Below are positions 6,171 through 60,736 of a stretch of DNA of 64,000 nt, piece by piece. The notes beneath the pieces were generated by a model that searched no databases, was not told the origin of the DNA, and worked only from the letters and a program-made list of their open reading frames with translations. The position numbers were made by a program, and so were the translations under genes. The stretch comes from Thermomicrobium sp. 4228-Ro (GTDB taxonomy: Bacteria; Chloroflexota; Chloroflexia; Thermomicrobiales; Thermomicrobiaceae). The stretch is taken from positions 806,001-870,000 of the forward strand of contig NZ_JAPFQM010000001.1 of NCBI RefSeq assembly GCF_026241205.1, written 5' to 3'. The stretch's first letter is position 1. Every line of letters starts with the position of its first letter.

Positions 6171-6828
6171 GCACCGCGTACGCCCGGACAGGAACCGCTG
6201 AGCCGGAGCGGATCGGGATCGGCGCAGCGTGGAAGCGGAAGCGGCGACCGACCAGCCGATCGAGACCGGTCAAGTTCTCGACGATCGGGACACCAGCCCG
6301 AAGCAGGATGGTGTGGGCTGGACGTCGCCGGTCGGCGACATCATCGATGTTCCAGCTGTCGATCCCGACCAGCACGGCCCCACGCTCGGCGAGCAACGCC
6401 GCAGCCTCTGCGGTGAGGTACGGGTTGGCTGCGAGATATCTGTCGCTTCCCCAGAAACGGTCCCAACCGGTGCAGACCAGTACTGCCGATCCGCTCAGGT
6501 CGAGACCGGCGAACCGTTCCGGCCCGATCGCCAGCGCACCACGCGCGACACGCCAGCGCGCGTCGACGACGAGACCGGGAAGATCGGCCACCCGATCGAG
6601 CGGCAGCGTAGCGAGGTCGAGACCATCGGCATACCGGTGATACGGAGCGTCCAGGTACGTACCGGCATTGCCGACGAAGCAGTAGCGATGGATGACGAAG
6701 GTCGTACCCTCGGCGTACGCACGCGCCATTTCCTCGCGACTCCGGTACTCGACGATTTCCGGAGCTGGCAGACCAGGAAACAGTGGGATGGCCGGATCGA
6801 AGGGATGGCTGAGATCGACGATGGCCAT
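6148..6828 (-). CDS. Cyclase-family (kynurenine-formamidase-like) metal hydrolase, variant metal motif
   Basis: The ATG preceded by AGGAGG gives 226 residues. The family (PF04199) includes kynurenine formamidase, isatin hydrolase and related amide/lactone hydrolases. N-terminal DLSHPFDPAIPLFPG and the C-terminal ENLTGLDRLVGRRFRF fit. The metal-binding signature HxGTHxDxPxH is changed here to NAGTYLDAPYH: N54 and Y58 stand where two histidine ligands usually sit, while D60 and H64 remain. GIDSWNIDD follows in the second half. The substrate is unknown and catalysis may use a different metal site. It converges on and overlaps the small gene at 5907-6170. Confidence 0.8.
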   Translation of the reverse strand: MAIVDLSHPFDPAIPLFPGLPAPEIVEYRSREEMARAYAEGTTFVIHRYCFVGNAGTYLDAPYHRYADGLDLATLPLDRVADLPGLVVDARWRVARGALAIGPERFAGLDLSGSAVLVCTGWDRFWGSDRYLAANPYLTAEAAALLAERGAVLVGIDSWNIDDVADRRRPAHTILLRAGVPIVENLTGLDRLVGRRFRFHAAPIPIRSGSAVPVRAYAVLSETAAA

Positions 6829-7352
6829 GACACGCACCTCCTGCTCGTCTCCCTGTCAGTCGCGACACCGGCTCCTGCAGCCCAGCCGGCCAGTTCGACG
6901 CGCTCACTCTCGTCGCTGTCGGACTTCCGTTTCGGCGCCCGCGTGCTCTGCTCCACCCACCGTGGTGAGATAGCTGTGCCAGCACGCTACCCTGCACGCG
7001 GGGGACAAACGCCTTCTGTCGCGTCCTACAGGACATTCCTCGGTTCGCGTCAGCCGAGCATAGTCCCGCGGCCTCCTCGTCCTCGCCCTGGCAGCTTCTG
7101 TACTCTTCCTGGCTCGCGACATTGTGCTGCCGTTTCTGGCCATCTACTGTGCGTAGATCGTCAGACTCGGCAAGAGGTCCGCAGGAGCGGGCATTGCTCT
7201 CTCGTCGGTTCTCGGAGTCATGGCAACGATCGCCCTCGCCGGGACGATCGACCGTCCCGGTACCCGGCGCATCTTGCTGCTCGCGGCGCGTGCACGCGCA
7301 TCGACGCATGGACCCCTCTGTCTTGGCCGAACGCCTCGCCGCTTCCTCACTG
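6829..7352. other. Gene-poor stretch with decayed exporter remnant
   Basis: No intact gene is supported here. On the plus strand from about 7070 the frame reads GLLVLALAASVLFLARDIVL then PFLAIYCA, hits TAG at 7154, and continues as a second hydrophobic stretch near ALSSVLGVMATIALAG. This two-helix layout with a short R/K loop resembles the N-terminus of AI-2E-family permeases. The rest of the ~370-residue family is missing, so it is read as a pseudogene fragment. The first 240 bases (6829-7069) show nothing recognisable. Confidence 0.4.
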
Positions 7353-7753
7353 TGATGGCATGCTTCGGAATCGCCGTCAACCTCTACTCGTACGAGCGAG
7401 CGTCGGGCGCGGTAGCGACCCCGTTCCTCTCAGTTGCCCGCGTTGGCGACGTCTTCGCGTTACAGCGCGTAGTCAATGCGCTCGATGGGTTGGTCGCGCG
7501 TGGCGGCGACACGCCGACGCACCGCGTGGTGTTTGTCGGCAGCACAGGGACATCGTCAAGTCCATCGGCGTGGGAGGCGCTACGTGACTCGCGAGAACGC
7601 TGCTCGAAACTGGCGCAACGCTCCTCGCTCTGGGGCGGTACAGTCGTCGCGATGCTCGCGATGAGCCTGCTCGCGTGGCTGATCCTACCCAAGACACCCC
7701 CATATGTCGAGTCAGCCACGTTCGCTATCGGGACGGAGTACGCTGATGGCTAA
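7353..7753 (+). CDS. Possible small membrane protein overlapping the P-type ATPase start
   Basis: From the ATG at 7353 the frame gives 133 residues (MACFGIAVNLYSYERASG) with one clear hydrophobic segment near the C-terminus (VVAMLAMSLLAWLIL). No ribosome site is obvious and no family is recognised. The frame is open back to 7220, in the same frame as the exporter remnant, so it may be remnant sequence rather than a gene. Its stop overlaps the ATG of the ATPase by 8 bp, which would allow coupling if it is translated. Confidence 0.3.
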
Positions 7754-56376: not shown

Positions 56377-56724
56377 TCATCCCTCCGATGATCGTACCCC
56401 GTTCTCCGGCTGCTCCGGGCGGCTCGCCTTCCGCTCGAGCCACCACGTCACGTGGATCGAAAAGATGAGAATGGCGATGGCGATGAGGCCGCGCAGCCAG
56501 ACCGGGCTTCCCGCGAGGTCGGTGTCCCAGACCGGCCCCCGCCGGATCCCCTGCCAGAGGGCTACTCCGATGAGCCAGGTGACCAGGAGTTCGTAAGCCC
56601 AGTCGAGTACTCGGTACGAACGGAAGCGCCGGATGACCCAACGAACGTGGGCCACGATCAGGAGCGCGAGGCTACCGAAGTAGGCGACAGCTGAGAAGAG
56701 CGGATACCAGCTTTCCGAGAGCAT
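56377..56724 (-). CDS. Small membrane protein
   Basis: This 115-residue protein has four predicted helices (YPLFSAVAYFGSLALLIVAHV, YELLVTWLIGVALWQGI, LRGLIAIAILIFSIHVTWWL and a short one) separated by basic loops, and a polar C-terminal tail. The ATG follows GGAGGA. The family is unknown. It ends the minus-strand region beginning with the LuxR-type regulator, but a 245-bp gap separates it from the next small membrane protein. Confidence 0.65.
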   Translation of the reverse strand: MLSESWYPLFSAVAYFGSLALLIVAHVRWVIRRFRSYRVLDWAYELLVTWLIGVALWQGIRRGPVWDTDLAGSPVWLRGLIAIAILIFSIHVTWWLERKASRPEQPENGVRSSEG

Positions 56725-56969
56725 GGGAGAATCCTCCTCCATCCAGGCTGAGCGCCTCGCTCACGGTCCCCACGGCGGCTCTTGCCAGCAACAGTCGCAT
56801 CACCAGACGCACGACCGCCACAAGCAACTCGCATCGAGCCGGTATCGGAAGACTGCCACCTGACCCGGGGTGTCCCGTGCGGTCATGACGCCCCTGCCAA
56901 CTCCAGTGGGTACAGACGAGCGTTTCAGAGGGCTAACCCACCAGCGCGGTGTAGTCATGCACGGATAGC
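56725..56969. other. Intergenic gap between two small membrane genes
   Basis: No gene, clear promoter or terminator is seen in these 245 bases. A promoter for the 56377-56724 gene is expected within it. Confidence 0.4.
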
Positions 56970-57314
56970 CTAGGCCGAACGTGCTGTTTCGCTCCCGTGC
57001 AGAGGCGTCCTTCCACTGGCTCGTCCTCTCTGCCGTACCCGGCGTAGCAGGGCCCACACATGCATCAGCACGAGCACTCCGGCCACACTCGCTGCTGCCG
57101 GGCTGGCCCAGTACCGGTACCACCCACGATCCCACCAGAGCACGAGCCACAGTGGCGTGACGAGCACGATCGCTCCAGCGAGGACCTTCCGACGCCTGGT
57201 CAGCGGCTGTCTCGTTGCGAGGGAGGTGCCCGTGACCAGTTCCGTAAACGCTTCGCACACAACGAGCACGGCGATGGTGTACCAGCACCAGGTCGCGAGC
57301 AGGCTCCACGGCAT
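56970..57314 (-). CDS. Small membrane protein downstream of the cysteine-rich ORF
   Basis: This 114-residue protein has four predicted helices, including LLATWCWYTIAVLVVCEAFT, KVLAGAIVLVTPLWLVLWW and AAASVAGVLVLMHVWALL, with a basic C-terminal tail RRVRQRGRASGR. The ATG follows GAGGAGGTG. It starts 23 bases after the stop of the 69-residue cysteine-rich ORF, so the two are likely in one operon. It might be a partner or immunity-type protein for that ORF, but this is only positional inference. Confidence 0.7.
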   Translation of the reverse strand: MPWSLLATWCWYTIAVLVVCEAFTELVTGTSLATRQPLTRRRKVLAGAIVLVTPLWLVLWWDRGWYRYWASPAAASVAGVLVLMHVWALLRRVRQRGRASGRTPLHGSETARSA

Positions 57315-57337
57315 AGATCCACCTCCTCAGGGCTTCC

Positions 57338-57547
57338 TCAGCCCGGCGGGACGAGGCAGCAGCACGTGCAACCCCACCCGCCCGGGCAGGATGCCCACAG
57401 GCAGACTGCACCGTAGGAGATGAGCACGCAGGCAAGACAGCGCCAGGAAGGGGGAATACAGACGGAGAGGCACGCTTGGCAGCAACTGACGAACGCTCGC
57501 CGATCGAACCGGCAACAGCAGCTGCATGGCACCTCATAGGACGGCAC
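57338..57547 (-). CDS. Very cysteine-rich small protein (16 Cys in 69 aa), candidate secreted peptide
   Basis: The frame opens with GTG (CAGGAG lies immediately before it) and gives 69 residues with cysteines at 8, 10-12, 22, 23, 26, 30, 37, 40, 49, 54, 60 and 62-64. The pattern C-CCC, then SCCQACLSVC, then CLACVLISYGAVC and CTCCC is typical of compact disulfide-rich peptides. It is loosely reminiscent of the cysteine-rich C-terminal region of halocin-C8-type bacteriocin precursors. No signal peptide is seen, which fits a C-terminal fragment of a longer precursor; the upstream frames (57548-57999) may supply the rest. Small, unconfirmed; could also be a structural or metal-binding peptide. 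Confidence 0.5.
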   Translation of the reverse strand: MPSYEVPCSCCCRFDRRAFVSCCQACLSVCIPPSWRCLACVLISYGAVCLWASCPGGWGCTCCCLVPPG

Positions 57548-57999
57548 TCCTGCAAAACCTGTTCAGAGTGGTTCACCCGTACTAGCTGACCGTTCTCGCT
57601 GAACCGGATGAGACGCACGGGTTCCCCACGTCGATCAGGAAGGCCGCCGAGCGTCCACGATCGTCGCGCAGTGCCGGGATACCGACCTGCTCGGTCACTG
57701 TTGCGACGATCAGCCACAGCGTCCGCCCGTCGGCCAGCCGGTGCTCGGCTGCCTGCGCCTCGGCAAGCTCTGCCGCACCGAGCACCGCCGGAAGGTCCGG
57801 CCCCGGCCAGCAGCTCCTCGCGGAGCTTCTGCGTCGCGCCAGCAGCGACCACGGTCGTCTCGACCGGCTCGACGGCCCACCGGGGCCGCGCCTTCCCTGC
57901 TCCCTGCTCCTCTGCTGCCACTGGTCGCGTCATCCCTCGCCAACGAGCCGGGCCAGCACCGTGCTCGCTCCCGACCGTCGTCGCGGTGCGCGCCGCCAC
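57548..57999 (-). pseudogene. Frameshifted upstream partner of the cysteine-rich ORF
   Basis: From the GTG at 57999 (GGAGAAGGAC upstream) one frame codes plausible sequence through TQKLREELLAGAG. The reading then continues sensibly only in a second frame (DLPAVLGAAELAEAQAAEHR and GRTLWLIVATVTEQVG), then back in the first frame (EPVRLIRFSENGQLVRVN) after a GGGG-type run that looks one base short. A third shift would join it to the cysteine-rich ORF. The parts together read like one precursor protein of ~190 residues before the Cys-rich tail. Whether this is decay or sequencing error cannot be told here. Confidence 0.4.
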
Positions 58000-58068
58000 G
58001 TCCGGTCCTTCTCCGGTAGTCCGTCATCCCAAGTGTCGGCCCGCACGGGTGACCGAAACCAGTCCCTT

Positions 58069-58092
58069 TCGGTGGACAGTGCTGTCCACCGA
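58069..58092. promoter_or_regulatory. Perfect 11-bp-arm palindrome upstream of the cysteine-rich locus
   Basis: TCGGTGGACAG and CTGTCCACCGA form an exact inverted repeat with a 2-base centre, lying between the stop of the LuxR-type regulator (58120) and the start of the frameshifted precursor frame (57999). It is a good candidate operator or a strong hairpin. No T-run follows on the minus strand, so an operator is favoured over a terminator. Confidence 0.55.
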
Positions 58093-58099
58093 GGGTGCA

Positions 58100-58128
58100 C
58101 CCCGCTGTCCTCCACCCCCTCAGCGGGG
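58100..58128 (-). terminator. GC-rich hairpin at the LuxR-regulator stop codon
   Basis: CCCCGCTG pairs with CAGCGGGG around a 13-base spacer, and the second arm overlaps the regulator's stop. It may slow or end transcription of the regulator. No U-tract. Confidence 0.35.
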
Positions 58129-58755
58129 CAGCAGCCCCTGCCGGCGCGCCGCCTCCACCACCGCCAGTCGTCCCCCCGTTACACCCAGCTTGGCCGCCAG
58201 CCGCCGCACCCGCCCCTTCACCGTCGCCGGAGCGATGCCCAGCCGTGCCCCGATCGCCCCATAGGTGAGGTGCCAGTCGGCCAGGAGCGGCAGGAGCTGC
58301 TGCTCCACCGGGCTCAGCCGCGGACGTCCCACCTGCTCCCGCCACAGCGCGGCCAGCTGGGCAGCCGCTGTCGGCCCGGCCACGAGCAGCGGGCTGTGGC
58401 TGAACACGGCGAGCAGGACGGGCACCGCCGCCCGGTCGAGATCGGCCCAGGTGAGGAGACCACGGAGCGGCAACCCGGCCGTGAGGAGCCTGTGGAGCAG
58501 GTGGGACTGGAGCGTGCGGGCGAGGAGCAGGCTCGGCTGCTGGGCGAGGAGCGCGAGGAGTGCTGGGTCCGGTGGCTCGGCGAGGTGATCGCTCCCGAGG
58601 ACGAGGAGGTCGGGCTGGAAGCGGACGAGGAGCGCCAGCGCGGTGGCACGGTCGTGGGTGAGCTGGACGGCGGTCACGCCTGGGCAGGCGCGGAGCTGGC
58701 GTGCCAGGTCCTGCCAGCCGAGCGCCTCGTCCGCCAGGAGCAGGATGCGGGTCAT
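58120..58755 (-). CDS. LuxR-type response-regulator-like transcription factor
   Basis: This 211-residue protein has a degenerate receiver-like N-terminal domain (MTRILLLADEALGWQDLARQ, LLVRFQPDLLVLGSDHL), without an evident phosphoacceptor aspartate set. The C-terminal LuxR-type helix-turn-helix reads LSPVEQQLLPLLADWHLTYG, IGARLGIAPATVKGRVRRLA and AKLGVTGGRLAVVEAA. A cognate kinase is not present. The gene lies just upstream of the palindrome and the cysteine-rich locus, which may be its target. Confidence 0.85.
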   Translation of the reverse strand: MTRILLLADEALGWQDLARQLRACPGVTAVQLTHDRATALALLVRFQPDLLVLGSDHLAEPPDPALLALLAQQPSLLLARTLQSHLLHRLLTAGLPLRGLLTWADLDRAAVPVLLAVFSHSPLLVAGPTAAAQLAALWREQVGRPRLSPVEQQLLPLLADWHLTYGAIGARLGIAPATVKGRVRRLAAKLGVTGGRLAVVEAARRQGLLPR

Positions 58756-59232
58756 CGCGGACGCCCCTTCCGGGCAGTCGGTCGGTTGCCGGAACCATAC
58801 CATGCTCGCTGCCGTTCCGGCAAGCGAAACCGGAGCCATACGGTACCGCCGGCGCTACCGAGGTAGCGTGATGGGAACCCCAATGACCAGCGCGAGCGGG
58901 GTAGCACGCCGTCCGGAGGGTGCCCAGTCAGGCTATCTCGCCGGACGGCACTGCCCCTGACCTCGCCTGCTGCGAACCCTGGGAAGTCGATCAGCTGTAG
59001 CCCGATTCACGCGCAGGCAAGCTGATGCCGTCTCGCTCGGCAAGTCGGGGTCAGTCGGGACTCAGATCGGCGTGCAGGCTTCCTGACCGAGGAGTCGCAC
59101 TACCCTGGCATGCACCCGGAAACGTGCAGCGCACGCCTCGCCAGCCGAACGTGACAGCGATGAGCGAGCCGAAAACGCCTTCTCAGCCCGTACTGGCTCG
59201 AGCGAGATGGTGCCCAGTGGGCGCTCGCCTGT
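58756..59232. other. 477-bp gap between regulator and lys gene cluster
   Basis: No gene or clear regulatory structure is visible here. The reading frames are shadows without ribosome sites. A promoter for the LuxR-type regulator is expected near 58760-58860. Confidence 0.4.
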
Positions 59233-59529
59233 TCACTCCTCCGGCTCGACGCGCACGCTCGGGAACCGCTGGGCCAGGCGCTCCTGCAGCTCGCTGAGGT
59301 ACTGCGCCTCCGTCGCGAGCACGTGCTCGGTCATCTCGCGCAGCCGTCGCGTCAGGCGAGCCGAGAGGGCGAGCGCGCTGCTCGCGAGCTGCAGCGCCTC
59401 CTCCGGCGCGAGATCGCCTCGTCCAGCCTGCTCGAGGAGCTGCGCCATCCGCTCCTCGTACGTCGTCACCATCACACCGAAGCTGCGCAAAAGCACGCGC
59501 GTGGAATCGCCGGGGCGCTGCTCGGACAT
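59233..59529 (-). CDS. Small helical hypothetical protein after lysJ
   Basis: This 98-residue protein starts MSEQRPGDSTRVLLRSFGV and is largely helical (ALQLASSALALSARLTRRLR, EMTEHVLATEAQYLSELQER). It follows the aminotransferase gene by 19 bp on the same strand, so it is likely the last gene of the lysine/arginine cluster. A longer start 13 residues upstream would overlap the aminotransferase gene. Family and role unknown. Confidence 0.6.
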   Translation of the reverse strand: MSEQRPGDSTRVLLRSFGVMVTTYEERMAQLLEQAGRGDLAPEEALQLASSALALSARLTRRLREMTEHVLATEAQYLSELQERLAQRFPSVRVEPEE

Positions 59530-59548
59530 CTGGGCCTCCGATCGTCGT

Positions 59549-60736
59549 TCAGCCAGCTCGTACCGCATCCAGCGCTTCGCCGATTCGGAGTACCGCGTCG
59601 TCGATATCCTCGCGCGTCAGGACGAGCGGCGGCAAGATGCGCACGACCGTCGTTCCGGCCGGGAGCGCCAGGACACCGCGTTCTTGCAGGGCCTTCAGCA
59701 CCGGCGTCGCTCGGGTCTTGAGGTCGAGGCCGAGCATGAGTCCGATGCCGCGCACTTCCCGGATCAGCGGGTGCCCGAGAGCCTCGAGTCGCTCGCGGAA
59801 ATAGGCACCGAGTTCCCCGGCCATCGGGATCAGCCCGTCGTCTTCCAGTGTCTCCAGCGTCGCCAGACCGGCCGCGCAGGCGAGCGGGTTGCCCCCGAAG
59901 GTGCTGCCATGAACGCCGGTCGGCAAAGCGAGCGCGACGTCTTCCGTCATCAAGGTCGCGCCGATCGGGACACCGTTGGCCAATCCTTTGGCGACGCAGA
60001 GCAGGTCGGGAGAGACGCCCGCATGCTGGCAGGCGAACCAGGCCCCGGTTCGGAAGGCAGTCTGTACCTCGTCGAACACCAAGAGCGCTCCGCGCTCACG
60101 CGTGATCCGTCGTGCTGCCGCGAGGTATTCCGGCGGTGCCGGGTAGATACCGGCCTCGCCTTGCACCGGCTCGAGGATCACCGCAGCCGTCTCCGTATCG
60201 ACCGCCGACTCGAGCGCCGCGACGTCTCCGTACGTGACGTGCACGACCTCCGGCAAGACCGCGAGGAACGGCTGCCGGTACTTCGGCTCGCCTGTCGCCG
60301 CCAGCGCCCCCAGCGTGCGTCCGTGGTACCCGCGCTTCGCCGCCACGACCTTGCGCCGGCCAGTGACCGCCCAGGCGAACTTCAGTGCAGCCTCGACCGC
60401 TTCCGCACCCGAATTGCTCAGGAACGCCCGCGCGAGTCCGTGCGGTGCGACCGCGAGCAGCTTCTCGAGAAACGCTGCCCGGACATCCGAGGCGAACGAC
60501 TGGTGGCAACTCAGGAGCCGGCTCGCTTGCCCGACGATCGCTGCCGTGACGCGTGGGTGCGCGTGACCCAGGATATTCACGCCGTAGTTGCTCATCAGGT
60601 CGAGGTACCGCTGGCCGTCACTGTCGTAGAGCCAGACACCCTCCCCGCGCACCAGTGCGATGCCACGCTTGGCGTAGAGCGGCGGCTGCAGCGACTCGTC
60701 CAGCTGGAGGATGGCGGTCGTCGATCGCGCCGTCAT
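59549..60736 (-). CDS. lysJ: LysJ/ArgD-type aminotransferase (PLP-dependent)
   Basis: This 395-residue class III aminotransferase transfers amino groups in the LysW-linked lysine (LysJ) or arginine/ornithine pathway. FLSNSGAEAVEAALKFAWAV, KRGYHGRTLGALAATG, LLVFDEVQTAFRTG and the PLP lysine in VAKGLANGVPIGATL are intact. It overlaps the lysZ stop by 4 bp. LysJ and ArgD functions can be combined in this pathway. Confidence 0.9.
   Translation of the reverse strand: MTARSTTAILQLDESLQPPLYAKRGIALVRGEGVWLYDSDGQRYLDLMSNYGVNILGHAHPRVTAAIVGQASRLLSCHQSFASDVRAAFLEKLLAVAPHGLARAFLSNSGAEAVEAALKFAWAVTGRRKVVAAKRGYHGRTLGALAATGEPKYRQPFLAVLPEVVHVTYGDVAALESAVDTETAAVILEPVQGEAGIYPAPPEYLAAARRITRERGALLVFDEVQTAFRTGAWFACQHAGVSPDLLCVAKGLANGVPIGATLMTEDVALALPTGVHGSTFGGNPLACAAGLATLETLEDDGLIPMAGELGAYFRERLEALGHPLIREVRGIGLMLGLDLKTRATPVLKALQERGVLALPAGTTVVRILPPLVLTREDIDDAVLRIGEALDAVRAG

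Follow-up and report, generated by a model that had tools for sequence, protein, structure and literature searches.

The window (the whole 64,000-nucleotide stretch of the Thermomicrobium sp. 4228-Ro genome that was analyzed) contains, with every ORF of the locus on the minus strand, a LuxR/NarL-type regulator gene, the decayed remnant of a precursor gene with a cysteine-rich tail, a small membrane protein gene, the relic of a second cysteine-tail gene and a second small membrane protein gene (Table 1). The initial annotation had placed a 69-residue ORF with 16 cysteines between the regulator and a membrane protein ORF and had reported a palindrome nearby; both are there as described, as are the other elements it named, but it missed the second tail relic and the second membrane gene, with which the locus extends further. 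Pfam and NCBIfam scans of the window's tail, linker and membrane proteins gave nothing above cut-off.

Table 1. Features of the locus in the window, in order of transcription.
Feature	Position	Strand	Description
LuxR/NarL-type regulator	58120-58839	minus	intact 239-aa ORF; conserved part and likely start from ~58755
Single copy of 89-bp sequence	58068-58156	minus	direct repeat in HRbin27
24-bp palindrome, TCGGTGGACAGCACTGTCCACCGA	58069-58092	none	between regulator and precursor remnant; 11-base arms, loop of 2
Linker region, decayed	57565-57889	minus	lies in two frames; not preceded by an N-terminal domain or a signal
Cys-rich tail (tail A)	57338-57547	minus	69-residue ORF, 16 Cys; frame differs from that of the linker
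Small membrane protein 1	56970-57314	minus	intact, 114 aa, 3-4 predicted hydrophobic segments
Relic of second Cys-tail gene (tail 2)	~56752-56950	minus	more decayed than the tail A gene
Small membrane protein 2	56377-56742	minus	intact, 121 aa, 3 hydrophobic segments

The regulator matches the GerE model (PF00196) at 17.1 bits, under the cut-off of 23.5, which its homologue at the equivalent place in genome G009 clears at 38.4 bits; in DNA it is 74% identical to the regulator preceding an intact precursor gene on contig C6 of the same genome. The palindrome is a candidate operator or hairpin: arms of at least 9 bases with a loop of at most 4 arose in 9 of 2000 shuffles, the same palindrome is present at this place in both copies of a repeat in the related genome HRbin27, the one on C6 has different letters in both arms with the symmetry kept, and in genome G006 another palindrome occupies the equivalent place.

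When the 69 residues of the 16-Cys frame were used as a query against the window's own genome, the self-match (99%) was followed in second place by C6:404016-404207 (46% identity, E 1.5e-5), which falls within a long open frame, P0001 (C6:403206-404213, 336 aa). P0001 consists, in order, of a thioredoxin-like CxxC domain, an internal twin-arginine-type segment, a linker and an 18-Cys tail, and it stands in a gene series made up of regulator, P0001, small membrane gene, a second Cys-tail gene lacking the N-terminal part (“N-less”), and more membrane genes. Window positions 57714-57889 are 84% identical in DNA to the C6 precursor, and the linker profile matches the window in two frames (best E 4e-6 and 3e-23). 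Because the same genome holds this full-length intact relative, the 16-Cys frame has genuine coding ancestry; what it preserves, in broken form, is a member of a genuine family of apparently exported Cys-rich proteins, which has been little described and whose members are probably bacterial weapons.

A closer relative of the window copy is the syntenic gene in HRbin27 (G005, contig C93, L025/L036), 92% identical in DNA, in which one frame stays open from ahead of the linker right through the tail. Where this gene ends, contig C93 of HRbin27 meets contig C298, and the joined pair is collinear with the window over the interval that begins with the aminotransferase gene and ends with valS. The window and HRbin27 sequences differ in length at three places, by a single base each: near 57803 (in a G-run), 57619 and 57541. 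The 89-bp sequence, which comprises the 3′ end of the regulator and the palindrome, is a direct repeat in HRbin27 (copies 96.6% identical), flanking a block of about 2.7 kb in which genes for an ABC ATPase and an ABC-2 permease accompany a full-length tail B precursor. In the window the repeat is single and the block is absent, so that either loss in the window or gain in HRbin27 is possible. The two ABC genes directly follow the full-length tail B precursor (L025:924-2505, minus strand). That precursor has an in-frame stop within its N-domain, and the HRbin27 regulator carries a frame break. Beside the regulator, a small gene at 59233-59568 of the window is far more diverged from HRbin27 (~76% DNA identity, dS 0.89) than the genes around it (86-95%). 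Transfer of the locus between species was considered on this account; since identity to HRbin27 is similar for valS and for the locus, orthologous descent suffices.

The initial annotation's view of coherent N-terminal frames broken by about three shifts, one of them in a G-run, agrees with the intact C6 relative, with the open HRbin27 orthologue and with the length difference near 57803. It overlooked that the thioredoxin-like domain and signal are wholly missing from the window copy: the N-domain profile has no match anywhere in the window, and the syntenic HRbin27 copy likewise lacks both parts. The tails of the two genomes share 87% amino acid identity, and in the window tail one cysteine that is kept in the C6, G001, G006 and HRbin27 tails has become tyrosine. 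In the remnant, the window and HRbin27 differ by 13 nonsynonymous and 6 synonymous changes, with dN/dS of 0.94 for the linker/middle part and 0.60 for the tail, neither distinguishable from neutral; a flanking gene has 0.23, and diverged intact tails, where the ratio is computable, have 0.12-0.35. Membrane protein 1 (96% amino acid identity to HRbin27) has a dN/dS of 0.29 and membrane protein 2 of 0.31 (Fisher p 0.009; 0.20-0.46 in nearly all other pairs). The contrast between remnant and membrane genes supports relaxed selection on the former, although with such small counts it is suggestive only. In the tail 2 relic, a deletion of about 240 bp at 56833/56834 has removed most of the Cys region and left only the ends, the last part (CDCCWQEPPWGP) lying after a stop; this gene end is still 95% identical in DNA, over 60 bp, to that of the intact C6 tail-2 gene. 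HRbin27 retains the part deleted in the window, but with a stop. The window copy is a pseudogene.

Could the breaks instead be sequencing or assembly errors in a functional gene? Two of the three are within short homopolymer runs, and HRbin27 is open over the same stretch; but the neighboring genes are unbroken (valS, 940 aa; the aminotransferase, 395 aa; the regulator; both membrane genes), a break-free copy would still be without N-domain and signal and would still have the Cys-to-Tyr change, and the second tail gene has its own deletion and stop. Error is thus improbable: because domain and signal are missing in both the window and HRbin27, and because independent breaks occur in copies from G006, G007, G005 and Streptomyces, the breaks are best read as decay, and the suggestion that they could be repaired as in a working gene gives way to decay of a pseudogene. 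Programmed frameshifting, by which the precursor would be expressed in several frames, is less probable again: there are breaks near the linker-tail junction in three genomes (the window's, G006 and G007), but their positions differ, and the junction is in frame in C6, G001 and HRbin27. The idea that the 16-Cys frame is a chance reading frame has very little left to recommend it; high-GC sequence does yield long spurious frames, and a 66-aa frame overlaps this very one, yet homologous tails with conserved cysteine positions in four other genomes (E down to 6.5e-27) refute it.

Profiles of each part were run over the loci of five Thermomicrobium-group genomes (the window genome, G001, G002, G005 and G006). 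The unit that recurs in them is a cassette of one Cys tail and one small membrane gene. The window tail is matched by the tail A profile at E 6.5e-27; in all cassettes found, the gene after tail A is of the membrane protein 1 type, and membrane protein 2, homologues of which (50-92% amino acid identity) occur in G001, G002, G005, G006 and on C6, accompanies tail 2 or what is left of it. Of the 16 tails, no more than two sit on a precursor that is full-length and unbroken (the C6 tail and probably that of G001, where a contig end truncates the gene); in about 14 of the 15 cassettes the membrane gene is intact. Across nine cassettes, tail distances correlate with the distances between the adjacent membrane proteins (Mantel r 0.83, p 2e-4; without the window copy, r 0.81, p 5e-5). 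Because two tail/membrane subtypes can occur within one genome, species relatedness alone does not explain this pairing; physical linkage alone may do so. G001 has an open frame (L023:8373-8588, minus strand) that runs from an ABC ATPase start into the last part of a tail A and looks like the scar of a recombination event. The neighboring membrane protein, proposed from the outset as a possible partner, is accordingly the constant companion of the Cys tail across cassettes, and the order of regulator, precursor and membrane gene recurs in related genomes. The ORF was to be considered a chance frame if no homologue joined its frames and Cys-rich ORFs were absent elsewhere; in relatives the frames do join, giving a product with an N-terminal region and a Cys-rich tail, an outcome in favor of a real gene.

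The N-terminal domain is sporadically distributed, in 10 of 61 relatives, 13 of 400 Chloroflexota and 2 of 47 genomes of the class of G374, and it is also found in Streptomyces and Streptacidiphilus. The CxxC motif is invariant in ten aligned N-domains, and the Thermomicrobia members have RR; the twin-arginine model scores 16.5, 17.6 and 18.9 bits in several members (cut-off 16.7). For the HRbin28 member, AlphaFold predicts a thioredoxin-like structure for residues 1-100 (pLDDT near 87) and a helix at the signal, the remainder being of low confidence. The predicted order of the domain, beta-alpha-beta-alpha-beta-beta-alpha, with CxxC at the start of helix 1 as in the thioredoxin fold, indicates that the N-domain of intact members has the core of that fold, at least as modeled. 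Comparison of structures matches it to thioredoxins, glutaredoxins and GST N-terminal domains, at Foldseek E of 0.015 or weaker; the highest Z, 7.1, belongs to the GST-fold SspA/MglA, and for thioredoxins and glutaredoxins Z is a modest 5.0-5.7. A profile search of PDB sequences with the N-domain gave nothing useful.

What follows the N-domain varies: tail A; tail B (G005, G009); other Cys-rich tails (G048, G206, G235, G262, G325, G401); a metallopeptidase-like region in G262; and a fulvocin C-related region in Ktedonosporobacter. Because some N-domain proteins of other Chloroflexota end in regions that are not Cys-rich, the domain is not specific to Cys tails. G262 has nine N-domain copies, several with stops; in two minus-strand genes there (L062:1376-2224 and 6607-7395), the CxxC N-domain precedes the zinc-metallopeptidase-like motifs HEFGHALG and HELGHGAG. 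Broken copies are common in several of the genomes that bear the domain. In G007 (L027:7210-8222) the precursor is split into two frames in a T-run ahead of the Cys tail, and is followed by an unrelated small membrane gene. Streptomyces violaceus (L035:4900-7160, with stretches masked) has at least two tandem fulvocin C-related-like genes, one of them broken inside the N-domain.

Judged by sequence, the nearest named family is the fulvocin C-related bacteriocins (NF033852), through the shared N-terminal domain. The Ktedonosporobacter rubrisoli member (L034) scores 107.8 bits against this model (cut-off 35), whose name denotes resemblance rather than proven activity, and it has the same N-terminal CxxC domain and membrane segment, followed by a C-terminus rich in cysteine. 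P0001 and the related-genome members also have this domain and membrane segment, which the window copy has lost. The Thermomicrobium tails differ in Cys pattern and number (16-18) and in their partner genes, and NF033852 does not match the window tail or linker, P0001, or the G005, G006, G007 and G009 members. Halocin C8, to which the initial annotation likened the precursor, is made as a single protein with a Tat-type signal, a long N-terminal region and a Cys-rich C-terminal peptide; its 283-aa ProC8 comprises HalI and the 76-aa halocin, and the N-terminal part of the precursor confers immunity (PMC11509114). The likeness to its two-part architecture stands, but membership in its family does not: the halocin C8-like model TIGR04449 (cut-off 24 bits) matches neither the window tail nor P0001 at E up to 5, and the tail of a distant N-domain relative (G401, L069) reaches a sub-threshold 14.4 bits. 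Here, unlike in halocin C8, a thioredoxin-like domain stands before the signal, and immunity is apparently the role of a separate membrane gene.

A third comparison, with the CDI/Rhs systems, is a close analogy in logic, not kinship. There, as here, a constant N-terminal part carries an exchangeable C-terminal part, and copies lacking the N-terminal part lie downstream and have partner genes of their own. In the CDI/Rhs systems the majority of orphan toxin parts are without initiation signals, their immunity genes nevertheless being expressible, and an immunity repertoire has been proposed as the reason for their retention (PMC3150448). The proteins are unrelated, however: the tails here are small and Cys-rich, the signal is of Tat type, the partners are membrane rather than soluble proteins, and the Thermomicrobium system shows no sign of contact dependence. 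The Thermomicrobium tails had no match in the family databases searched, and a literature search for work on fulvocin C-related families or on bacteriocins of Thermomicrobium turned up no paper.

The reading that we favor, with a probability of roughly 60%, is that the locus is a decayed accessory system for an exported Cys-rich protein, made as a polymorphic, bacteriocin-like precursor in two parts, in which the tail would have been antibacterial and the membrane protein would confer immunity, and of which orphan-immunity cassettes are left. In intact members, a LuxR-type regulator gene and a palindromic site precede a precursor composed of a CxxC thioredoxin-like domain, an internal twin-arginine-type signal or membrane segment, a linker and an exchangeable Cys-rich tail. 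The thioredoxin-like domain may handle the tail cysteines ahead of export; the tail would be a disulfide-stabilized antibacterial peptide, freed after export; and the small membrane protein would be the producer's cognate immunity protein, protein 1 for tail A and protein 2 for tail 2, tails traveling as cassettes with their own membrane genes. With both tails disrupted but neither membrane gene damaged, the window locus most likely now gives immunity only.

Another possibility accepts the decay but gives the Cys-rich proteins a different job: once exported, they would bind metal, serve a redox function or belong to the envelope, with the membrane proteins as partners in assembly or export. 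Cys-rich, thioredoxin-fused, membrane-partnered proteins would fit redox or metal roles too, the antibacterial role is itself deduced, and the N-domain is also joined to other C-terminal regions. A constant N-part that takes exchangeable tails, the arrays of N-less tails, subtype-matched partners, a sporadic distribution and rapid decay with the partner kept all fit a toxin-immunity system better than housekeeping roles; two relatives are, moreover, bacteriocin-like by profile. We therefore regard such a role as unlikely, though well short of negligible.

Taking the toxin-immunity reading further is more tentative, with chances that we would put somewhat below even: the locus may represent a polymorphic antibacterial system absent from the family libraries searched, in which a thioredoxin-fused, twin-arginine-exported carrier bears exchangeable Cys-rich killer tails, each with a membrane immunity gene. 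The N-less cassettes would then be both an immunity store and a recombination reservoir, and the window's immunity genes would be outliving their toxins. By the available models the system lies outside both the halocin C8 and the fulvocin C-related families, yet on the favored reading it would work like both.

If the favored reading holds, there is in thermophilic Chloroflexota a branch of Cys-rich bacteriocin-like proteins that has not been described before and that has its own thioredoxin-like domain built in, possibly as a means of managing 16-18 cysteines before export. The poorly studied fulvocin C-related proteins would be linked to a modular family, and the orphan toxin-immunity idea would extend from the large CDI/Rhs proteins to small Cys-rich peptides. 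The window itself is a clear case of partner genes kept after the gene they accompanied had decayed, and it gives a direct test of the immunity hypothesis.
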